46,660 bases of DNA. Source: a virus. The notes below the pieces were generated by a model. The model was not told the DNA's origin. It worked only from the letters and a program-made list of their open reading frames with translations, and searched no databases. This document shows, piece by piece, positions 15 to 25,518 of this stretch (position 1 is the first letter of the stretch; every line of letters begins with the position of its first letter). Location of the stretch: the IMG/VR virus record IMGVR_UViG_3300017752_000025, positions 1-46,660 of that record; one strand, given 5' to 3'. Position numbers and translations under genes: made by a program.

Positions 15-170
15 ATGGACTTAATAAAAGACCTACGAGCTCTCAAAAAAGAGAAAAGTAAAGAAATCTCTGCTAGAGCTCAATTAAGAAAAAGAAGTAA
101 AGATAGTATTGCCAGACCAAAGGCAAAGAAAAATCTTTTTTCTAACGATCCTAGATTACAAGGGATATAG
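15..170 (+). CDS. small basic hypothetical protein, 51 aa
   Basis: A short reading frame starts with ATG at 15, five bases after an AAAGGAG ribosome-binding site at 3-9, and ends with TAG at 168-170. The product is highly charged, with Lys/Arg-rich stretches such as LRALKKEKSKE and LRKRSKDS. It has no membrane segment or signal peptide. I do not recognise a family. The strong Shine-Dalgarno sequence and good spacing are the main reasons to call it real. It is followed directly by a late promoter-like box and a hairpin, so it is probably the last gene of an upstream rightward operon; the TAA at 1-3 may be the end of the preceding gene. Confidence 0.6.
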   Translation: MDLIKDLRALKKEKSKEISARAQLRKRSKDSIARPKAKKNLFSNDPRLQGI

Positions 171-172
171 TA

Positions 173-180
173 TATAAATA
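173..180 (+). promoter_or_regulatory. T4-type late promoter box, no sense gene downstream
   Basis: An exact TATAAATA lies just after the 51-aa gene. Downstream there is no rightward gene until 2004; a hairpin follows within 16 bases and then leftward genes. It could drive a short non-coding RNA, drive antisense transcription through tRNA-His and the leftward block, or be a chance match in AT-rich DNA. Confidence 0.45.
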
Positions 181-195
181 ATTATACCACACCAC

Positions 196-228
196 GAGAG
201 GTGAGACCTCCACATATTCTCACCTCTC
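196..228. terminator. perfect 11-bp hairpin between convergent transcription units
   Basis: GAGAGGTGAGA at 196-206 pairs perfectly with TCTCACCTCTC at 218-228 around an 11-base loop. It lies between the rightward gene ending at 170 and the leftward tRNA ending at 246, where a bidirectional terminator is expected. No uninterrupted T run follows on either strand, so it may instead be an RNA-stabilising or processing hairpin. Confidence 0.5.
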
Positions 229-245
229 ACTTAATCTAAAAATTT

Positions 246-319
246 TGGTACAATCGGATTGAATCGAACAATCACCTTCTGCGCCACAGGCAGACGTTCT
301 ACCGTTAAACTACGATTGC
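246..319 (-). tRNA. tRNA-His (GTG anticodon), CCA encoded
   Basis: The reverse strand folds as a full cloverleaf. The acceptor is GCAATCG with CGATTG-T, with a G1:T72 wobble. The D-arm is GTTT/GAAC. The anticodon stem TCTGC/GCAGA holds loop CTGTGGC, so U33 is present and the anticodon is GTG. The T-arm is GATTG/CAATC with loop TTCGATT. The discriminator is A73 and CCA is encoded. The base before G1 is A, so no templated G-1 is present, and position 73 is A rather than the usual C of tRNA-His. That pattern is known from many alphaproteobacteria with a divergent HisRS. It may serve late translation, since phage and host codon use differ. Confidence 0.9.
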
Positions 320-322
320 TCT

Positions 323-541
323 TTAATGTGTATAAGTGTAAACTAAACCAATAAATGTAATTGTCGCTAATACAATATTAGTTGTAATCAATGCGGCTTC
401 ACGCCACATAATAGAAACGATTAACCAAGTCATACCACCAAACAAATTAGCGATAGGACCCCAAGGGTAAATGTTAAGTGAATTTAATGCGGCACCGATC
501 ATTAGAAATCCTGTCGCTATCCATTTAAGATATTTGTCCAT
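323..541 (-). CDS. small membrane protein, 72 aa
   Basis: The product has two or three hydrophobic helices: roughly residues 8-24, 30-46 and 50-70, with a central GGMTWLIVSIMWRE segment. There is no signal peptidase motif, so it is probably an inner-membrane protein. It resembles small two/three-helix proteins of marine phages and bacteria of the DUF6552 type; this is recollection, not a search. Its ATG overlaps the stop of the preceding gene by one base (TAATG), so translation is probably coupled. It is the last protein gene of the leftward block before tRNA-His. Confidence 0.75.
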   Translation of the reverse strand: MDKYLKWIATGFLMIGAALNSLNIYPWGPIANLFGGMTWLIVSIMWREAALITTNIVLATITFIGLVYTYTH

Positions 542-3103: not shown

Positions 3104-3532
3104 ATGGCAATATATGACGCTTCAAATACTAATAAAAGTAAAAAATCTGTAAGGTCTTTTTATAAAGATTTAGATTTAGATTTTACTAGAAACGTAGTTA
3201 CAAATGATGTTGTAAAAATTGAAGATGTTAATGCTGTAAAAAGAAGTGTTAAAAATTTAATTCAAACTAATCATTATGAAAGACCATTCCATCCAGAATT
3301 AGGTTGTGGTATAAGAGAATTACTTTTTGAAAATTTTACACCACTTACTGGTATTTTCATAAGAAGAAAAGTAGAAGAAGTTATAACTAACTACGAACCA
3401 AGAGCAAGATTATCACAGGTTTCAGTTAACGAACAACCTGATAGAAATGGAATTGAAGTTACTGTATATTTTTATGTTATGAATATACCTGAACCAGTTT
3501 CTGTAACGACACTATTACAAAGGATTAGATAG
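3104..3532 (+). CDS. 25: baseplate wedge subunit gp25
   Basis: The 142-aa product has the gp25/W-lysozyme-like fold: RSVKNLIQTNHYERPFHPEL, then GCGIRELLFE at about residues 67-76, then IRRKVEEVITNYEPRARL, and a C-terminal beta segment. T4 gp25 (132 aa) is a core wedge component that contacts the first sheath ring; the family is structural rather than enzymatic in phage. It starts just downstream of an exact late promoter with no visible ribosome-binding site and is followed two bases later by gp6. Confidence 0.95.
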   Translation: MAIYDASNTNKSKKSVRSFYKDLDLDFTRNVVTNDVVKIEDVNAVKRSVKNLIQTNHYERPFHPELGCGIRELLFENFTPLTGIFIRRKVEEVITNYEPRARLSQVSVNEQPDRNGIEVTVYFYVMNIPEPVSVTTLLQRIR

Positions 3533-3534
3533 CA

Positions 3535-5388
3535 ATGGCATCAAACAAACTTTCAGTATCAGAATTAGATTTTGATAATATAAAATCAAACTTAAAAACA
3601 TTTTTACAAAATCAAGCAGAGTTCCAAGATTATGATTTTGAAGGTTCAGGTTTTGCTATTCTTTTAGATACTCTTGCATATAATACTCACTATCTAGGTT
3701 TCAATGCTAATATGTTAGCAAATGAAATGTACTTGGACAGTGCTGACATCAGAAAAAATATAGTTTCATTAGCGAAGATGTTAGGTTATACTCCAACATC
3801 ACCTAAGTCTCCAACAGCATCAATTGATGTTTTATTAAACAATGGTTCTGGCGCATCAGTTACCATGGCAAAAGGAACAACTTTCACAACAACTGTAGAT
3901 GGAACAACTTATCAGTTTGTAACAAATGCTTCTCACACAATGACACCTTTAAATGGTATTTACAAGTTTCATAGTATACCAATTTATGAAGGTACTTTAG
4001 TTACATTTAAATATACTGTAGATACTTCTGATCCAGACCAGAAATTTATTATTCCAAGTATAACTGCTGATACATCAACTTTAAAAGTACAAATACAAAA
4101 TTCAGTTTCTGATACTACAACAAACACTTGGACAAAAGCAACAGGTTTAACTTCTTTAGATAATACATCAAAAGTCTATTTTTTACAAGAAGGTGAAAAT
4201 GGTAAGTTTGAAGTTTATTTTGGTGATGGTATTGTTGGTAAATCTTTAGATGATGGTAACATTGTAATTTTAGAATACATTGTTTCCAACAAAACTGAAG
4301 CAAATGGTGCTTCTGCATTTACACTATCAGGAAGTGTTGGTGGATTTACAGATGTTACTATAACAACAGTTTCAAGTGCTCAAGGTGGCGCAGAGGCTCA
4401 ATCAAAAGAGTCAATACGATATAATGCACCGTTACAATATGCAAGACAAGATAGAGCAGTTACAACAGGTGATTATGAAACACTTGTACAAGAAATATAT
4501 CCAAACGCATTATCAGTTTCAGCGTGGGGTGGTGAAGATGATGAAACACCAATTTATGGTGTAGTAAAGATTGCCATTAAAGCAGCATCAGGTTCTACAC
4601 TTACAGATACTACAAAGACAAGTATTATAACACAATTACAAAAATTTAATGTTGCATCTGTTAGACCAGAGATTGTTGATCCAGAAACTACATCTCTTAT
4701 ACTTAATACAGTTGTAAAGTATGATGAAAAAGCAACTACAAAAACTTCAGATACAATAAAATCAAATGTCACAACCACTTTAACAAATTACAACACAGAT
4801 ACACTTCAAAAATTTGATGGTGTGTTTAGACATTCAAAAGTTACAGGTTTAATAGATGATACAGATACTAGTATCTTATCAAACGTAACTAAATTAACTA
4901 TAAGAAAATCATTTACTCCAACATTAAGTACATCTACAAGATATGATGTTTATTTTAGAAATGGTATTTTTAATCCACACTCTGGACATAAATCAGCATC
5001 TGGTGGTGTTATAAGTTCAACAGGATTTAAAGTACCAAATGATAGTAATGTTTATTACCTTGATGATGATGGAAGTGGAAATATAAGAAGATATTATTTT
5101 GTAGGTTCTGTTAGAACATATGCAAATAACACTCAAGGAACAGTTAATTATACAACTGGTCAAATCACAATCAACTCTTTAAATGTTGCGTCAGTAGAAA
5201 ATATACGAGGTGCATCATCTACTGTTATTGAAATAACTGTAGAGCCAGATTCTTATGATATAGTTCCTGTTAGAGATCAGATTTTAGAAATAGATACAGC
5301 AAACTCAACTATCACAGTAGAGGCAGATACTTTTGTTGGTGGTTCTGCTGATGCTGGTATTGGATATACAACAACATCTAATTACTAA
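3535..5388 (+). CDS. 6: baseplate wedge subunit gp6
   Basis: The N-terminus carries the gp6/baseplate J-like signature: FEGSGFAILLDTLAYNTHYL, then an LANEMYLDSADIRKN stretch and LAKMLGYTPTSPKSP. Two gp6 copies per wedge form the T4 inner baseplate ring. At 617 aa it is close to T4 gp6 (660 aa). The middle holds the conserved AQGGAEAQSKESIRYNAP and AVTTGDYETLVQEIYPNA blocks seen in baseplate assembly proteins. It lies between gp25 and the large protein at 5388, whose ATG overlaps its stop. Confidence 0.95.
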   Translation: MASNKLSVSELDFDNIKSNLKTFLQNQAEFQDYDFEGSGFAILLDTLAYNTHYLGFNANMLANEMYLDSADIRKNIVSLAKMLGYTPTSPKSPTASIDVLLNNGSGASVTMAKGTTFTTTVDGTTYQFVTNASHTMTPLNGIYKFHSIPIYEGTLVTFKYTVDTSDPDQKFIIPSITADTSTLKVQIQNSVSDTTTNTWTKATGLTSLDNTSKVYFLQEGENGKFEVYFGDGIVGKSLDDGNIVILEYIVSNKTEANGASAFTLSGSVGGFTDVTITTVSSAQGGAEAQSKESIRYNAPLQYARQDRAVTTGDYETLVQEIYPNALSVSAWGGEDDETPIYGVVKIAIKAASGSTLTDTTKTSIITQLQKFNVASVRPEIVDPETTSLILNTVVKYDEKATTKTSDTIKSNVTTTLTNYNTDTLQKFDGVFRHSKVTGLIDDTDTSILSNVTKLTIRKSFTPTLSTSTRYDVYFRNGIFNPHSGHKSASGGVISSTGFKVPNDSNVYYLDDDGSGNIRRYYFVGSVRTYANNTQGTVNYTTGQITINSLNVASVENIRGASSTVIEITVEPDSYDIVPVRDQILEIDTANSTITVEADTFVGGSADAGIGYTTTSNY

Positions 5389-7967
5389 TGGCAAAGTTCA
5401 CAGATAAAATATCAAGCCTGATTAATCAACAGGTTCCAGAGTTCGTATTAGAACAACACCCTAAATTTTTAGAATTTCTAAAAACGTATTATACGTTTAT
5501 GGAGTCAGCAGAGTTAGGTGTTACTTCTATACAAACAACAGATGGTATTTTATTAGAAACAGAAACTGCACAAGAAAATGAATTAATATTAGATGGTTCT
5601 CGTTTAGATACAGATAGAACACAATTAGATGCCGGTGATAAAATAATTTTAGAAAGTTCTACTTATGGTAAATTTACTAGAGGCGAAATAATCACTGGTC
5701 AAACTTCAAATGCAACTACAACTGTACTTGCTGAAGATTTAGGTAATAATAGACTTTTTATATCAGCACAAGATAAGTTTATAGATGGTGAAACAGTTGT
5801 GGGCGCTAGTTCTAACGCTACAGCAATTATTAATAATTACAAACCAAATCCAGTAAACAATATACAAGAGTTATTAAATTTTAGAGATCCTGATAAAGCT
5901 ATATCAAATTTCTTAACAAAATTTAGAAATGAATTTTTAAACACATTACCAGAAACATTAAGTAATGGTGTTGACAAAAGAAAATTAATTAAAAATGTTA
6001 AATCATTATATCGAGCAAAAGGTACAAATAGAGGACACCAATTATTTTTTAGATTATTATTTGGATTAAATTCAGAAACAATATATCCTAGAGAACAAAT
6101 GTTAAGAACATCTGATGGTACTTGGGATACAAAAACAATATTAAGAGCAATTGGAACTGTTGGTGATACAACTAATTTAATAGGTAGAACAATAACAGGC
6201 GAAACATCAGAAGCCACAGCAGTAGTTGAAAATGTATTTAAATTTCAAATTGGTACAACTGAAGTATCTGAATTAATTTTAAACAATGATACTATTTCAG
6301 GTACCTTTCAAATAAGTGAAGTTGTAAGAGGTACAATAAATGATGAATCTGATATTTTTATCAAAGCAACTATCACAGGTATTCCAAAAACAATTTCTAT
6401 AACTAATGATGGAAATTTATATACTGAAGGAGATAGTATATTAGTTAGTGGTGGTGGTAATGGAGCAATTATTCAAGTAGATTCTGTTGGAAGAGGTGGT
6501 ATTACAGATTTTGTTATTGCAACAGCAGGGTCTGGTTATAAGATTGGTGATGCTATAGAATTTACAAACACAGGAACAGGTGGAGGAAATGCCAGTGCAA
6601 AAGTATCAGTAGTTAACGGAGGATTTACACAAGAAACTTCAACATCTACTGTTGACGACCATATAGTTTTAGAAGACGAAACTGTAAGAGGCGATCCATA
6701 CACAGGTAATAAAGTTGTACAAGAGAGTGGTAGTGGTACTGGTGATATTACAGATATTAGAATAATATCAAATGGAAATAATTATCAATCTTTACCTACA
6801 GTTGCAGTAGATGATACAAATGGATCAAGTGCAGTTGTATATGCATACAGTACAGATATAGGTAGAGTGTTAGGAATGAAGATTGTAGAATCAGGTTCAG
6901 GTTATGAAGCATCTCCGTCACCACCTACATTATTATTACCAAGTTATATTATTATTTCAGGTGTTTCAGGTACATTTCAAGTTGGTGAAAATGTTACAGG
7001 TATTGATGCAACATCAACAGCAGTTTCAGCCACTGTTGTTTCATATACATCAGGTACAGGTATATTAAAAGTTTCTAGTCCAACAGGACAATTTGCTGAA
7101 AAATCAACAATCACATCTGCAGGTGGTGCAACAGCAACAGTTGAAAAAAATGATTTAGGTACAGCGACAGTGTCAATTGGAGCTGTTGTTGATACTACGG
7201 GTACTTATATTAACCAAGATGGTCACTTATCTGATGACTCAATGAAAATACAAGATAGTTTATATTACCAAGACTTCTCTTATGTAATTAAAGTGGGTCG
7301 TTCAATATCCGATTGGAGAGATAGTTTTAAAAAGACAGTACACACATCAGGTTTCTTTTTTTCTGGACAAGTTAATATAGAAACATCAGTAGATGCTAGA
7401 TTAAGAAGATTCACTACAATTAATTCTAATGTTGAATATGAAGGTATACAAACTGTATTAAATACATTATTCTCAACAATCTTTGGAAGAAGATTAGGAA
7501 CAACTACTGATGGAACAACTTTAAGAGTTAGTCCTCAATTAGGTGTTGATCCAGACTTTACTGATTCAACTAGTGAGCATTTCACATCAAATACTAGAGA
7601 TGTCACTTTACATCAACATATAACTTTAATTGGTGCTGGTGGAATAATAAAAGAAGTAACGGATATTAGAAGTAATACAACAAAATTTGGTGTTCCTGTT
7701 GCGGGTCCTACTTTACATAGTATTAATAAATTAGTATTAGGGGAACATTTTGCTAATCGAATTACAATAGCTCAATTAAACGCTTTAACACTGACAGGAA
7801 CAAAAAATAGTAATATTGACGGCGAACAAGTAATAATGGGAGATTTTCCATTTAAATTAAAAACTAATTTTGCGATACCAGCAGAAGTATGGCAAGTATC
7901 TAGTGATAGTTTTGATGAAGATAGAGATACTTTTGATGAAACTAATATAACTTTTGATGCTGCTTAA
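5388..7967 (+). CDS. large baseplate structural protein at the gp7 position, 859 aa
   Basis: The N-terminal 60 residues (INQQVPEFVLEQHPKFLEFL, KTYYTFMES) match the start of large baseplate proteins that follow gp6 in marine T4-like phages. The rest is beta-rich with recurring modules: FTRGEIITGQTSNAT, FIDGETVVGASSNAT, GRTITGETSEATA and FQVGENVTG, plus glycine-rich segments such as TAGSGYKIGDAIEF. The segment near residue 640 (SLYYQDFSYVIKVGRSI) is conserved in the family. By position it may replace T4 gp7, but I cannot show homology to gp7. It is coupled to gp6 through TAATG. Confidence 0.75.
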   Translation: MAKFTDKISSLINQQVPEFVLEQHPKFLEFLKTYYTFMESAELGVTSIQTTDGILLETETAQENELILDGSRLDTDRTQLDAGDKIILESSTYGKFTRGEIITGQTSNATTTVLAEDLGNNRLFISAQDKFIDGETVVGASSNATAIINNYKPNPVNNIQELLNFRDPDKAISNFLTKFRNEFLNTLPETLSNGVDKRKLIKNVKSLYRAKGTNRGHQLFFRLLFGLNSETIYPREQMLRTSDGTWDTKTILRAIGTVGDTTNLIGRTITGETSEATAVVENVFKFQIGTTEVSELILNNDTISGTFQISEVVRGTINDESDIFIKATITGIPKTISITNDGNLYTEGDSILVSGGGNGAIIQVDSVGRGGITDFVIATAGSGYKIGDAIEFTNTGTGGGNASAKVSVVNGGFTQETSTSTVDDHIVLEDETVRGDPYTGNKVVQESGSGTGDITDIRIISNGNNYQSLPTVAVDDTNGSSAVVYAYSTDIGRVLGMKIVESGSGYEASPSPPTLLLPSYIIISGVSGTFQVGENVTGIDATSTAVSATVVSYTSGTGILKVSSPTGQFAEKSTITSAGGATATVEKNDLGTATVSIGAVVDTTGTYINQDGHLSDDSMKIQDSLYYQDFSYVIKVGRSISDWRDSFKKTVHTSGFFFSGQVNIETSVDARLRRFTTINSNVEYEGIQTVLNTLFSTIFGRRLGTTTDGTTLRVSPQLGVDPDFTDSTSEHFTSNTRDVTLHQHITLIGAGGIIKEVTDIRSNTTKFGVPVAGPTLHSINKLVLGEHFANRITIAQLNALTLTGTKNSNIDGEQVIMGDFPFKLKTNFAIPAEVWQVSSDSFDEDRDTFDETNITFDAA

Positions 7968-19958: not shown

Positions 19959-20612
19959 ATGAAAGAACTGAACTTAAATAAAACACATTCCAATTCATCA
20001 ACAGTTATACCTTTATTTGCCGTTCCTATAGGATTATATACCTTAAATATATCTCAAAAAGAACAAAATCAAATAGAAAATAAAATACAAAACTTAAATT
20101 ACGGTCCTACTAATCAAAGTGGAGGGTCTAATATAAGTAAAGATTTATTTTTATTTAAAGATAAAACATTTAAATTATTAAAAGAAAAAATTTTGAAAAT
20201 GGTTTGTGTTTATAATGAAGAAGTAATGGGTTATAAAAAAACAAATTTTAAAGTGACTACATCTTGGGCAACCAGATGTCAAAAGAACGAAGAATCTGAA
20301 AGACACAAACATTGTAATAGCATGTATTCAGCTGTTTATTATAATAAATGTGATGAAGATATATCTGACATTTCTTTTTACAATAATAATTGGACTAGTA
20401 ACAATTACGATTTAGAAACAACTGAATTTAATACATTCAATTCTAGCTCTTGGTCTTTTAAACCTAAAGACAAACTTTTAATTATTTTTCCTTCTTCTAT
20501 GTATCATAAAATATCAAAAAGTTATGGTGAAATAAATAGATATTCTATAGCATGTAATTTTGTTCCAAAACCACCTTATGGTTATATGGACAGTTTTGTA
20601 AATGAAAAATAA
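19959..20612 (+). CDS. putative 2OG-Fe(II) oxygenase, 217 aa
   Basis: The segment TSWATRCQKNEESERHKHCN and SMYSAVYYNK (His116, His118) matches the HxHxN..(S)..YY motif of the 2OG-Fe(II) oxygenase family common in cyanophages (2OG-FeII_Oxy_5 type). IIFPSSMYHKISKSYGEINR supplies the distal His183, and Arg194 is placed to bind the 2-oxoglutarate carboxylate. The family hydroxylates protein or small-molecule substrates; the substrate here is unknown. It is the first gene of the ten-gene array, and 45 bases separate it from the next. Confidence 0.75.
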   Translation: MKELNLNKTHSNSSTVIPLFAVPIGLYTLNISQKEQNQIENKIQNLNYGPTNQSGGSNISKDLFLFKDKTFKLLKEKILKMVCVYNEEVMGYKKTNFKVTTSWATRCQKNEESERHKHCNSMYSAVYYNKCDEDISDISFYNNNWTSNNYDLETTEFNTFNSSSWSFKPKDKLLIIFPSSMYHKISKSYGEINRYSIACNFVPKPPYGYMDSFVNEK

Positions 20613-20663
20613 GGTTTTAAAAGCTTTATATATATTAGTAAATAAATTTAATGAGGTATGAAT

Positions 20664-21173
20664 ATGATTAAAAAAACACTTTCGGAGATTGACATTTACA
20701 CTGGAGATGTAAACTTACCTAAAGGTATTGAAATAAACCTAGAGGCGTTGAGAGCAGATATACTGTTTTACTTAACTAATAACAAATTTCCACAATCTAA
20801 AAGTACTGATATATTAGATACGTATATCAGAGATTACTTCAATGTAAACTTTAAAAGGTATCTTATACAAAGACACACAACAGGTATTATGTTAAAACCT
20901 AATGAATACTCTTTATCGTTATATGATGTAAATCCTATGGATTTAGTTAATTCAGTAGATTATGTTATGTTTTATGGTGTTAATATTCCTAAAGAAGGCT
21001 CGTGTAAGATTGTGTTTGAATATGACAATAAAAGATTTAAAGATAACTTTTATGAAATAAGTTTAAAAACAAATTCATATGTTATTTTTCCTAGCACTTT
21101 AGTCTATAGGTTTGAACCTAACACTTCAAGTAGTTTAAATTATATTATGAAAACAACTTATGAACTTAAATAA
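20664..21173 (+). CDS. oxygenase-array protein with degenerate metal-site motif, 169 aa
   Basis: I prefer the ATG at 20664 to that at 20658 because GAGG at 20653-20656 is then seven bases away. The C-terminal half has an oxygenase-like layout: GIMLKPNEYSLSLYDVNP, a FYGVNIPKEGSCKIVFEY strand pair, then VIFPSTLVYRFEP. In the last motif a Tyr (148) stands where the distal metal His is expected, and no HxD is present. It may be a non-catalytic member or a partner that scaffolds the others. The next start lies inside its 3' end (14-base overlap). Confidence 0.55.
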   Translation: MIKKTLSEIDIYTGDVNLPKGIEINLEALRADILFYLTNNKFPQSKSTDILDTYIRDYFNVNFKRYLIQRHTTGIMLKPNEYSLSLYDVNPMDLVNSVDYVMFYGVNIPKEGSCKIVFEYDNKRFKDNFYEISLKTNSYVIFPSTLVYRFEPNTSSSLNYIMKTTYELK

Positions 21174-21828
21174 TTATTATTGGTTTTTTCGATCAGCGTT
21201 ATCTTCTAAATTTTGTGATAGAATTTTAAAACGTGCTTTAAAAGAGAAAGATGAAGTTGCTTTAATAGGTGGTGCAAGTGGTGATATTCGGAAAACTTCT
21301 AAAAAACAAATTAATGATCTTAAAAAGATAAGAAGATCAAATATAACCTGGCTAGATGATCAGTGGATTTACAAAAAGATCCACCCATATATTCACACAG
21401 CAAATAGAAATGCTGGTTGGAATTATGAATGGGACTATTCTGAAACTTGTCAATTTACAAAATATAAAACAAAACAATTTTATGATTGGCATTGTGATGC
21501 TTGGCCACTACCATATGGTTCTGCTGATCCAGAGTTACACGTAGGTCCTGTAAGTGGAGAAGTTAATAAACATAAAATAGGTAAAATTAGAAAATTATCA
21601 GTAACAGTTTCGTTGTCTGATCCTAAAGATTACAAAGGTGGCGAGTTAGAGTTTGACTTTAGAAATATGAATCCTGACAAAGAACATAATCGAAAAATAT
21701 GTACAGAAATATTACCTAGAGGTAGTATAGTCGTTTTCCCTAGTCACGTATGGCATAGAGTTAGACCTGTAACAAAAGGAGTTAGATATTCTCTAGTTAT
21801 TTGGAACCTAGGTTATCCTTTTAAGTAA
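21160..21828 (+). CDS. 2OG-Fe(II) oxygenase, prolyl-hydroxylase type, 222 aa
   Basis: This is the clearest oxygenase of the array. YDWHCDAWPLPYG gives the HxD pair His111/Asp113. Then LSVTVSLSDPKDYKGGELEF is the conserved strand with GGEL. GSIVVFPSHVWHRVRPVTKG provides distal His199, and GVRYSLVIW provides Arg209 for 2-oxoglutarate. All four key residues are present and length fits prolyl-4-hydroxylase/PKHD-type enzymes. Such enzymes hydroxylate Pro, Lys or other residues; a fibre protein could be the target (inference). The N-terminal 14 bases overlap the previous gene. Confidence 0.9.
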   Translation: MNLNNYYWFFRSALSSKFCDRILKRALKEKDEVALIGGASGDIRKTSKKQINDLKKIRRSNITWLDDQWIYKKIHPYIHTANRNAGWNYEWDYSETCQFTKYKTKQFYDWHCDAWPLPYGSADPELHVGPVSGEVNKHKIGKIRKLSVTVSLSDPKDYKGGELEFDFRNMNPDKEHNRKICTEILPRGSIVVFPSHVWHRVRPVTKGVRYSLVIWNLGYPFK

Positions 21829-22290
21829 ATGAAGTATTTTTTAGAAAAAAAATTTATAAAATTTAAAAAAGAATTAGACTTTAATAGATTATCTAATTTG
21901 ATGGCAGATAATAATTTTCAAAGTAAAGTTATATCTGTATATAACACTGATTACTTATTAGACAGTATATTTCAAATTAGAAATATACAAGAAGAAACAT
22001 TTTTTACAGAAGTTTTTAACCAAATGAATCATATGTTTAATAATGAAAACCATAGAACTACATTGGATTTATTTTTTTCATATATGAGAGGTGCTAGAGG
22101 TGATGCTCATAGAGATCAGGAATCTGTTCATATTATGGGAGCATTTGGAAAAACTTTATATTGTATTAATAATGAAGAAATAATATTAGAAAAGGGGGAT
22201 AGATTATTCATAGAAAAAGGAGTTAAACATAGAGCTATAGGTTTAACACCAAGAATAATTTTATCTTTTGGTAAATATGAAAACTACTAA
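21829..22290 (+). CDS. cupin-type putative oxygenase, 153 aa
   Basis: The C-terminal half reads GDAHRDQESVHIMGAFGKTL, then IILEKGDRLFIEKGVKHRAI and TPRIILSFG. This is a double-stranded beta-helix with an HxD pair (His94/Asp96), distal His134 and Arg142, the residue set of a 2OG-Fe(II) or JmjC-like cupin. The GDRLFIEKGVKHRA segment is typical cupin. The start follows the preceding stop with no gap. The N-terminal 60 residues are helical and do not resemble a known domain. Confidence 0.7.
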   Translation: MKYFLEKKFIKFKKELDFNRLSNLMADNNFQSKVISVYNTDYLLDSIFQIRNIQEETFFTEVFNQMNHMFNNENHRTTLDLFFSYMRGARGDAHRDQESVHIMGAFGKTLYCINNEEIILEKGDRLFIEKGVKHRAIGLTPRIILSFGKYENY

Positions 22291-22966
22291 TTTTAAAAAA
22301 GACAAATATGCGGTGATAAAGAATGTTATATCAAAAGAATTATCCGAATACATATTTAACTATTTTATGATAAAAAGACAAGTGGCGCAAACTCTTTTTT
22401 ATTCAAAATTTATCTCACCAGAAAATACTGATTGGGGATTTTTTAAGGATCCTCAAGTACCAAATACATATTCTCACTATGCCGATATTGCTATGGAAAC
22501 TCTTTTATTAAAAGTACAGCCAGTAATAGAAAAACATATAAAAGATAAACTCATTCCAACATATTCATATGCTAGAATATATAAAAAGGGTGATATATTA
22601 GAAAGACATAAAGATAGACCTAGTTGTGAAATATCAGTTACAATGAATCTAGGTGGTGATCTTTGGCCAATATATTTAAACCCTGATCCAAAGTCTGGTT
22701 ATGTAGATAAGAATAGTAAAAAAAGAGGAAGACATGCGATCCAAGATTACGTGCCTTCTAGTAAAAAGGGAATTGAAGTAAATCTCAAACCTGGCGATAT
22801 GCTCATATACTCTGGTTGTGATTTAGAACATTGGAGAGATAAATTTAAAGGTAAAGACTGTGCTCAAGTTTTTTTACATTATAACAAACTTAGCAGTGGT
22901 ACAAAAAATATTTTTGATAATAGAAAACATATAGGACTTCCCGTTGAATTTAAAAACAAAGTATAA
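22277..22966 (+). CDS. 2OG-Fe(II) oxygenase, ERHxD family, about 229 aa
   Basis: YARIYKKGDILERHKDRPSC carries the HxD pair, with CEISVTMNLGGDLWPIY as the following strand. LKPGDMLIYSGCDLEHWRD gives the distal His, and AQVFLHYN closes the fold. This ERHxDRPSCEIS...GCDLEHWR signature is a known subfamily in marine phages and bacteria. Two starts are possible: ATG at 22268 or ATG at 22277 (MKTTNFKK); I give the shorter form. Either way the start overlaps the previous gene by 14-23 bases. Substrate unknown. Confidence 0.85.
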   Translation: MKTTNFKKDKYAVIKNVISKELSEYIFNYFMIKRQVAQTLFYSKFISPENTDWGFFKDPQVPNTYSHYADIAMETLLLKVQPVIEKHIKDKLIPTYSYARIYKKGDILERHKDRPSCEISVTMNLGGDLWPIYLNPDPKSGYVDKNSKKRGRHAIQDYVPSSKKGIEVNLKPGDMLIYSGCDLEHWRDKFKGKDCAQVFLHYNKLSSGTKNIFDNRKHIGLPVEFKNKV

Positions 22967-23465
22967 GATTATAGATAATTTTTTAGAAAAAAATGTGTAC
23001 GATCATTTTTCTAATTTTTTAAAGTCTGAAGAAGTACCTTGGTATTTACGACATATTGATTCATCTTATGGTGAAACTAAAAATAAAAATGGTTTTTTTT
23101 CTTTTTGTTTTTATAATAATTTTGAACCAAACCACGATGCCTTTTACACTTATATACAACCATTTATTAAAAAATTAAAAGCAAGATCACTTTTACAAAT
23201 AAGAGCTAATTTAACTTGTAGAGATATTGATAATAACGAGTCATCTTATCACGTGGATTATAATTATAATAATTCTATGACTGGAATTTATTTTCTTACA
23301 TCTTGTAATGCTAAAACAATATTAAAAATTAATAAAAAAGAAATAGTTGTAGATAATATTGAAAATAGAATGTTGTTATTTCCAACGAACATATTACATA
23401 AAGTGGTTTATCAAACTGATATACATAAAAGATATGTTGTTAATTTTAACTTTTTTGGTGAATAA
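22944..23465 (+). CDS. 2OG-Fe(II) oxygenase, HVDY type, 173 aa
   Basis: NESSYHVDYNYNNSMTGIYF gives His103/Asp105 with the following strand, and LLFPTNILHKVVYQTDIHKR gives His152 and Arg163. All four expected residues are there. The start is a TTG at 22944, inside the end of the previous gene, with AGGA nearby; a later start would remove the first strand. The N-terminus KYKIIDNFLEKNVYDHFSNF is typical of phage members of this family. Its stop overlaps the next ATG (TAATG). Confidence 0.75.
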   Translation: MNLKTKYKIIDNFLEKNVYDHFSNFLKSEEVPWYLRHIDSSYGETKNKNGFFSFCFYNNFEPNHDAFYTYIQPFIKKLKARSLLQIRANLTCRDIDNNESSYHVDYNYNNSMTGIYFLTSCNAKTILKINKKEIVVDNIENRMLLFPTNILHKVVYQTDIHKRYVVNFNFFGE

Positions 23466-23794
23466 TGTCAGTTGCTAATTTTACAAAATTATTAAAAGAT
23501 AAAAAATATCCTAAATCAAAAGAAGGTTGGGATATAGAAGGCATATTACATAAGTCAACAAATAGGTCTTATAAGTATGATTTGGGTCCTATTAGAAAAT
23601 TTGAAGATGAATCAGTAGGAAAAATAGGTTTTTTTAAAACCAAAGCAGATAAGATGGTATTTGATTTTAAAGATCAGTGGATAATATTAGACATTGAAGA
23701 ACTACACGAATATATAAAAGAAAATAATGTTAAAAATCTTTTACTTGATGATCTTCTTAAAACTTTAACGTGGAATATAATTGTAGATAAATGA
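23465..23794 (+). CDS. array protein without an oxygenase motif, 109 aa
   Basis: A small alpha/beta protein with FTKLLKDKKYPKSKEGWDI at the start and a conserved-looking core MVFDFKDQWIILDIEELHEY, ending TWNIIVDK. No HxD or distal His motif is present. I believe related short proteins occur in marine T4-like phages but cannot name the family. It overlaps both neighbours (TAATG upstream, ATGA downstream), so it is co-translated with the oxygenases and may be an accessory or substrate-presenting protein. Confidence 0.7.
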   Translation: MSVANFTKLLKDKKYPKSKEGWDIEGILHKSTNRSYKYDLGPIRKFEDESVGKIGFFKTKADKMVFDFKDQWIILDIEELHEYIKENNVKNLLLDDLLKTLTWNIIVDK

Positions 23795-24468
23795 ATTGGC
23801 CTTTAGTAGTTGCAGATGAGTTTTACAAAGACATTGATCTCTTACAAGATTTTGCAGTAAAACAACATTATGAACCTGGACTTAATTTTCCAGGATTTAG
23901 AACAAATTTAATAAGTGAAATAAATCCTAATTTATTTGAAGGTATTGCTTTAAAAACTTTGTCTTTATTATATCCAGATAACTATAATGAGTTGACATAT
24001 AGAGCAACTTCTTATATTCAGAGAATACCAGCAAACTTAATTGATGGTTGGGTACATTCAGATCAAGGAAGTCAAATTACTTCTATAATATATTTAAACA
24101 AAAATATTAATGCTGGAACATCATTATTTAAGCCAGTTGTTCCTTTTCCAAACATTAATGATTACGCTTATGATAAAAGATGTTATTTTCAAAAAGTAAA
24201 TAATTTAGAGAAACTTACGAAAAAAGAAGAAGTATTTTTTACAAGTAAAAGAGATGAAATTAATTCTCAGTTTAGAAAAACTTGTTTCATAAATTCTGAA
24301 TATAATAGGTGTATCTTATTTGATGCTAGTGAATATCATTCAGCAGAAAGTTTTAATTCTAATACTAAAGAAGATAGATATACTTACATTACTTTTTGGC
24401 AAGAGATATGGTACGGAAACAAACAATTAAATCCAACGTTACCTACTTCAAAAAGGATTATGCCATAA
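23791..24468 (+). CDS. 2OG-Fe(II) oxygenase-like protein (DUF6445 type), 225 aa
   Basis: The protein reads WPLVVADEFYKDIDLLQDFA at the N-terminus, LIDGWVHSDQGSQITSIIYL in the middle (His89/Asp91) and CILFDASEYHSAESFN near the C-terminus (His183), followed by DRYTYITFW (Arg196). This set fits DUF6445-type proteins, thought to be related to 2OG-Fe(II) oxygenases. An insertion of about 50 residues separates the two metal motifs. ATGA couples it to the gene before, and TAATG to the gene after. Confidence 0.75.
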   Translation: MNWPLVVADEFYKDIDLLQDFAVKQHYEPGLNFPGFRTNLISEINPNLFEGIALKTLSLLYPDNYNELTYRATSYIQRIPANLIDGWVHSDQGSQITSIIYLNKNINAGTSLFKPVVPFPNINDYAYDKRCYFQKVNNLEKLTKKEEVFFTSKRDEINSQFRKTCFINSEYNRCILFDASEYHSAESFNSNTKEDRYTYITFWQEIWYGNKQLNPTLPTSKRIMP

Positions 24469-25007
24469 TGGATAATTTTATATACTTGTCAAAAATTAGT
24501 AAAAAGGTATGTGAGGATATTGTTAATTATTATTTCAATAATAAAGAGCAGCACTTACAACCAGAGTTTAATAGTGATACTAAAACATCTACGGAATTAC
24601 CTATCTCTGTTAGTAACAATGATTATCCATTTAACAAATATAAAACTGAATTACAAAAATGTATTGATGAATATAGAAATAAGTATCCAGAGGTAGATAC
24701 CTTATTAGAAAAATGGGGTCTATTAGAAGATTATAATATACAATACTATAAACCAGACGAAGGTTTTAAAAAAGTACACTGTGAAAGAGGTTGTATAGAA
24801 GCATCTAAACGAGTCCTTGTTTTTATGACTTATCTAAATACAGTACAAGATGCTGGAACTATATGGCCAAAACAAAAATTTACTTCCGATTGTATTATCG
24901 GCAACACTGTTATATGGCCTACGGATTGGACACACTCTCATAGAGGTATTATAAACTCTAAAAAAGATAAATGTATTATTACAGGATGGTATAGTTTTTA
25001 TGATTAA
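24468..25007 (+). CDS. 2OG-Fe(II) oxygenase, HCE type, 179 aa
   Basis: The ATG at 24468 overlaps the previous stop (TAATG), like its neighbours. A longer form from TTG at 24396 would overlap by 73 bases and add residues not typical of the family. YKPDEGFKKVHCERGC gives His104/Glu106 (HxE instead of HxD). RVLVFMTYLNTVQDAGTIW is the core strand pair. VIWPTDWTHSHRGIINS gives the distal His at 156 or 158, with Lys/Arg following. ITGWYSFYD closes the protein, a signature I recognise from phage oxygenases. Confidence 0.8.
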   Translation: MDNFIYLSKISKKVCEDIVNYYFNNKEQHLQPEFNSDTKTSTELPISVSNNDYPFNKYKTELQKCIDEYRNKYPEVDTLLEKWGLLEDYNIQYYKPDEGFKKVHCERGCIEASKRVLVFMTYLNTVQDAGTIWPKQKFTSDCIIGNTVIWPTDWTHSHRGIINSKKDKCIITGWYSFYD

Positions 25008-25518
25008 AGTAAAGAAAATCCAAAGTTACTATCTAGTTACAAAGATCAAAGAACATAATCAAATTAAAAGTGATCTCTTATCTTTAATTGATAAGATACC
25101 TCAAAATTCTTTTGAAGATATAACACATACAGATTGGAATTTACCTAGAGATTTAAAGAGAGAATATTTAGACTATTTTTATAAAATTATTACACCTTAT
25201 ATGAATGAGATGACTGAATTTTTAGAGGAAAAGAAATGTACTATTCAAAATGGATGGTTTCAACAATATTATAAAAATAACTACCACACTTGGCATAGAC
25301 ACGGAAAAACAAATTTTGCTAATGTATATTATCTAGAGCTGAAAGATACTAAAAGAACAACAAAAGTTAAACCTATAGTAAATAGTAAGAAGTCAATAAA
25401 TCTAATAGCTAAAGAAGGTGAATTAGTTACTTTTCCTGCTATGTTTCAACATACGTCTGAGAAGATTAATAACAATTTTAGAAAAACAATAATATCATTT
25501 AATAGTGATTTTGAGTAA
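25000..25518 (+). CDS. 2OG-Fe(II) oxygenase-like protein, HxH type, 172 aa
   Basis: NNYHTWHRHGKTNFANVYYL (His96, His99, His101) resembles the metal motif of the family with HxWHxHxx.NFS.VYYLEL. EGELVTFPAMFQHTSEKINN supplies distal His151, with Arg161 before the last strand TIISFNSDFE. It is the last gene of the array and overlaps the previous by eight bases. After it a late promoter starts a new fibre group, so the array is one unit ending at 25518. Confidence 0.8.
   Translation: MIKVKKIQSYYLVTKIKEHNQIKSDLLSLIDKIPQNSFEDITHTDWNLPRDLKREYLDYFYKIITPYMNEMTEFLEEKKCTIQNGWFQQYYKNNYHTWHRHGKTNFANVYYLELKDTKRTTKVKPIVNSKKSINLIAKEGELVTFPAMFQHTSEKINNNFRKTIISFNSDFE

Follow-up and report, generated by a model that had tools for sequence, protein, structure and literature searches.

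The window, the whole 46,660-base stretch analysed here, is a fragment of an uncultured virus in which ARAGORN and Rfam both find a single tRNA gene, a tRNA-His. The gene lies downstream of a leftward run of small open reading frames and about 3.2 kb ahead of the first large baseplate gene. The features of the locus are as follows:

15-170, plus strand: 51-aa ORF on the far side of the locus, resembling (as judged by eye) DNA beside the tRNA-Leu/Arg/Pro cluster of phage Mosig
173-232, plus strand: conserved element beside the tRNA and convergent with it, supported by covariation and by relatives
173-180, plus strand: T4-like late promoter TATAAATA
186-194, plus strand: predicted RNA 5′ end ACCACACCA, invariant
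207-214, plus strand: invariant loop motif CCTCCACA in an 11-bp covarying hairpin
246-319, minus strand: tRNA-His(GTG), 74 nt, with G1:U72, C2:G71, A73 and A at −1 (ARAGORN, Rfam, sequence)
246-248, minus strand: encoded CCA of the tRNA-His, read in the sequence
323-541, minus strand: 72-aa ORF (Pfam DUF6552) immediately upstream of the tRNA on the same strand, within the leftward small-ORF run
3104-7967, plus strand: baseplate gene cluster (gp25; gp6-like phrog_219; phrog_3465), which anchors the locus and the phage lineage

The genes of the window are T4-like (baseplate, sheath, terminase, portal), and it is a fragment of a T4-like pelagimyophage of the Mosig/HTVC008M group. Among annotated phages, Pelagibacter phage Mosig EXVC030M is the closest, covering 34% and 32% of the two halves of the window at 73-78% identity, followed by HTVC008M. 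Both were isolated on SAR11 strain HTCC1062, and from these related isolates we infer that the window's phage infects SAR11; any assignment to an exact host strain is presumptive. Among the structural genes, at 19959-25518, are several genes of the 2OG-Fe(II) oxygenase family and a weak match to cupin, and such oxygenases are present in Mosig too.

ARAGORN called tRNA-His(gtg) at 246-319 on the minus strand and Rfam model RF00005 matched over 249-319 with 67 bits (gathering score 29; E 1.5e-12), in line with the histidine isotype of the original prediction. Read 5′ to 3′, the tRNA is GCAATCG TA GTTT AACGGTA GAAC G TCTGC CTGTGGC GCAGA AGGT GATTG TTCGATT CAATC CGATTGT A CCA. The seven-pair acceptor stem begins with G1:U72, C2:G71 and A3:U70 and is followed by A73. 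The base preceding G1 is A (window position 320 is t on the plus strand), which means that no G-1 is templated and that, with A73, the canonical bacterial G-1:C73 pair is absent. The missing G-1, A73 and the G1:T72 pair had thus all been read correctly; the original description gave no strand for the gene. The covariance model gives the cloverleaf, which is not the minimum in a single-sequence fold of the tRNA. The presence of 27 homologous tRNA-His genes in related IMG/VR contigs, found with the gp6-like protein or a tRNA pattern as query, confirmed that the gene is real and not a chance feature.

These related genes occupy the same position, upstream of the baseplate genes, wherever both are in view. 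The tRNA is present in 9 of the 13 relatives that have at least 3.3 kb upstream of the gp6-like gene, and where found its end lies 2.4-3.6 kb ahead of that gene, always on the opposite strand. Four relatives (L162, L169, L174 and L208) have no tRNA-His, as would be expected if the gene were a remnant without function or a passenger gained by horizontal transfer. This explanation is highly improbable, however, as all stems of the window's tRNA pair, the CCA is encoded, and across 11 distinct phage forms (window included) the acceptor pairs covary and the determinants are fixed: pairs 1:72, 2:71 and 3:70 and base 73 are invariant, and pairs 4-7 change but remain paired. Among 62 other viral tRNA-His genes, chosen by U72/A73 and G71 with a search pattern that left base 1 free, base 1 is G throughout, which indicates that the wobble itself is maintained, not U72 alone. 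The body of the phage tRNA drifts as the identity determinants stay fixed, a pattern that selection for charging by the host enzyme would predict. In Mosig, the tRNA-Leu/Arg/Pro cluster adjoins the DNA resembling the 51-aa ORF and occupies the same place as the window's tRNA-His, upstream of the baseplate genes and on the opposite strand. The isotypes differ from the window's His (Leu, Arg and Pro in Mosig, Gly in HTVC008M), and neither Mosig nor HTVC008M has a tRNA-His, which makes it dispensable across the wider group.

A BLASTN search with the 74-nt tRNA against five SAR11 genomes gave no match because the sequence is too divergent for such a search, and pattern searches were hence used. 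All 41 full-length SAR11 tRNA-His genes extracted (nine distinct) share G1:U72, C2:G71 and A73 with the window's tRNA, and their base at −1 is T, A or G, with no consistent G-1. In a sample of 147 Pelagibacterales genomes, the tRNA-His of at least 96 (hand count) ends in GTACCA and C73 occurs in none of the tRNA-His among the matches listed; the other listed matches are mostly tRNA-Leu, and 13 genomes gave no match. A published survey found the derived tRNA-His type in seven of eight SAR11 genomes, with only HIMB59 canonical (PMC3937112); together with the Pelagibacterales count, this settles the case of SAR11 for this trait, against the earlier caution that SAR11 identity features are debated. 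Across the class (142 alphaproteobacterial genomes sampled), tRNA-His is either U72/A73, the type of at least 18 genomes among the matches listed (hand count), or C72/C73, and all 23 full-length C73 genes extracted have G at −1.

The host enzyme differs accordingly: in the motif-2 loop of HisRS, all 12 SAR11 genomes compared have G and all three C73 genomes have Q, and a Q to G change in SAR11 HisRS has been reported (PMC3937112). The tRNA-His of SAR11 and RRCH-clade alphaproteobacteria (Ardell and Andersson 2006 and Wang 2007, both as related in citing papers; Yuan 2011; PMC3937112) is among the closest known systems and likewise combines G1:U72, A73 and a GUG anticodon with no consistent G-1. 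A73, U72 and the anticodon are the determinants for Caulobacter HisRS, and G1:U72 with A73 are determinants in two other species (reviews PMC9976931, PMC7590224). Since the divergent HisRS of alphaproteobacteria has U72, A73 and the anticodon as its published determinants, the G1:U72 "wobble" is an identity element, and the alphaproteobacterial identity proposed for the phage tRNA is borne out by both the SAR11 genes and the literature. Thg1, the G-1-adding enzyme, whose presence in the host bears on the same claim, was not found in 16 SAR11 genomes, Mosig, HTVC008M or two related contigs, with Sinorhizobium phage phiM12 as the positive control. In SAR11, the tRNA-His gene directly adjoins hisS (for example, G005:C1:301817 and 301897), and the pair could be moved together.

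Outside these determinants, the window's tRNA-His differs from that of its presumed hosts. At 74 nt it is shorter than the SAR11/RRCH host genes (75-77 nt), its D loop being short and its variable loop having 4 nt; it has C32/C38 in the anticodon loop where the hosts have U/A, and its identity to the nearest host tRNA-His gene found is about 68%. The best BLAST matches of its body are phage tRNA-Gly genes, which, with the two short loops, could reflect a recoded tRNA-Gly that merely resembles tRNA-His. We regard this as the least probable of the alternatives. Among host tRNAs of any isotype compared (25 tRNAs of SAR11 genome G013 plus SAR11 tRNA-His, the hosts being SAR11 only), the body is closest to SAR11 tRNA-His, at 68%, and the tRNA-Gly origin drawn from BLAST in phages was rejected on this comparison. 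The relatives form a graded series from 77-nt host-like tRNA-His through intermediate forms, those with a 77-nt body being about 80% identical to SAR11 tRNA-His, and at the acceptor end U72 is followed by A73, whereas bacterial glycine identity is listed with U73 (PMC9976931).

Taken together, the locus very probably encodes a functional tRNA-His of a T4-like pelagimyophage, of SAR11-type origin and charged by the divergent HisRS of the host. A pathway is proposed where the gene first came from the tRNA-His gene of a SAR11-type alphaproteobacterium and has stayed matched to the divergent HisRS of the host. RNase P of the host would trim the phage tRNA to G1, without G-1, and HisRS would recognize U72 (in G1:U72), A73 and the GUG anticodon and charge it. 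The charged tRNA would decode CAC and CAU codons and would add to, or replace, the host tRNA-His pool during infection, which is the simplest and most likely role. We infer that the phage tRNA is transcribed, charged and used in translation. Codon supply alone would be a weak motive, as the phage shows no enrichment of His codons (1.12% vs 1.44%) and the host already reads them with the same anticodon; CAC makes up 49% of His codons in the window vs 23% in SAR11.

Phage tRNAs are known to replace cleaved host tRNAs, for other tRNAs, and the main role could instead be resistance to host anticodon nucleases, with a variant anticodon arm replacing cleaved host tRNA-His. The lack of His codon enrichment would fit such a role, as would an anticodon stem and loop unlike those of the host (C32/C38) and the fact that tRNA-His is the sole tRNA in the scanned 46-82 kb fragments of the clade. 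Several relatives, however, retain the host-like anticodon loop TTGTGGA, and we consider nuclease resistance unlikely as the main role.

The conserved element on the opposite strand is a more novel feature than the tRNA-His itself. Compensatory changes in the stem of its 11-bp hairpin occupy 27 cells in 26 distinct sequences (window included), against 5.8 (sd 2.1) in shuffles, and its covariation score is 0.325 against 0.131 (0 of 500 shuffles). An optional hairpin, often capped by UUCG, lies between ACCACACCA and this main hairpin, and the UUCG caps and G-U pairs favor the plus strand as the putative RNA strand. Of the 30 distinct copies with enough flank, 26 have tRNA-His on the other strand, 74-113 nt away as counted from the late promoter; further copies include L162:2126-2196, L286:10520-10586, L317:2085-2154 and L507:7585-7654. 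The element matches no Rfam family, and BLASTN against the annotated phages gave no match near its full length. Mosig lacks it, and in HTVC008M and the cyanophages searched the model scores did not rise above chance level. A candidate copy in Mosig, with one CCTCCACA, was rejected because the site lies inside a gene and gives no model match. The window has 15 late-promoter-like TATAAATA sites, all on the plus strand, against 9.2 expected over both strands, and many of them sit just upstream of structural genes.

We tentatively raise the possibility that the tRNA-His forms one half of a conserved cassette, the other half being a small structured RNA made from the late promoter, which could act as a late, as yet undescribed regulator of translation in phage or host or exert antisense control of the tRNA. 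As a similarly speculative outline, the candidate RNA would have ACCACACCA at its 5′ end, then the optional UUCG-capped hairpin and the main hairpin with its invariant CCUCCACA loop, and would run toward the tRNA. The suggested role in translation comes from the loop CCTCCACA, which resembles the 16S anti-Shine-Dalgarno sequence.

How far the tRNA-His alone can identify a host was gauged from a small sample of eight phages with labelled hosts. U72 occurs together with A73 in two of the three phages of derived-type hosts and in none of the five of canonical hosts. Agrobacterium phage Atu_ph07 (G1:U72, A73) and Caulobacter phage CcrColossus (U72, A73, with U1 opposite U72) lack G-1 like the window's tRNA, and both are unrelated to the window phage; the third, phiM12, has G72 and A73. 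In the canonical-host set, S-CRM01, S-CREM1 and KVP40 (Synechococcus and Vibrio) combine C73 with T at −1, G-1 and C73 are both present in Mimi, and Enterococcus phage GVEsP-1 has G-1 and A73. Taken singly, a missing G-1 and A73 are thus not diagnostic of the host, and the missing G-1 was rejected as a marker because three canonical-host phages also lack it. PhiM12 encodes a Thg1-family protein (L399, NC_027204, 394-804) although its host is G-1-less, and the U1:G72 pair of its tRNA-His, next to A73, is odd for the tRNA-His type of that host.

OM43 and cyanobacteria have the canonical G-1:C73 tRNA-His, and the combined U72 and A73 signature excludes cyanobacterial, OM43-like and HIMB59-like hosts. 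It cannot separate SAR11 from Rhodobacterales (Roseobacter), Rhizobiales or Caulobacterales. The original prediction of a host clue holds, the nearest isolates being phages of SAR11; U72/A73 is common to these three other orders. Another alphaproteobacterium of the same tRNA-His type, from the Rhodobacterales or Rhizobiales, is nevertheless a very unlikely host, as the DNA of the window matches pelagiphages first, with isolates obtained on HTCC1062, the tRNA locus is in the same place as the tRNA cluster of Mosig, and SAR11 tRNA-His comes nearest to the tRNA body in a comparison of SAR11 hosts only. Phage relatedness, rather than the tRNA signature, points to SAR11 within the derived-type hosts.

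Phage tRNAs of host type are already known; the addition made here is a phage tRNA-His that conforms to the derived identity set of the host group, which can help host assignment in marine T4-like phages. The combination of U72 and A73 in a phage tRNA-His offers a simple sequence test that divides hosts with a divergent HisRS (SAR11, Rhodobacterales, Rhizobiales and Caulobacterales) from those with a canonical HisRS (cyanobacteria, OM43, HIMB59 and most others). Such a test is of use in the T4-like phages of the sea, for which host jumps between classes have been proposed and where closely related phages can infect hosts of different classes, for example Melnitz on OM43 and Mosig on SAR11 (PMC9004378).
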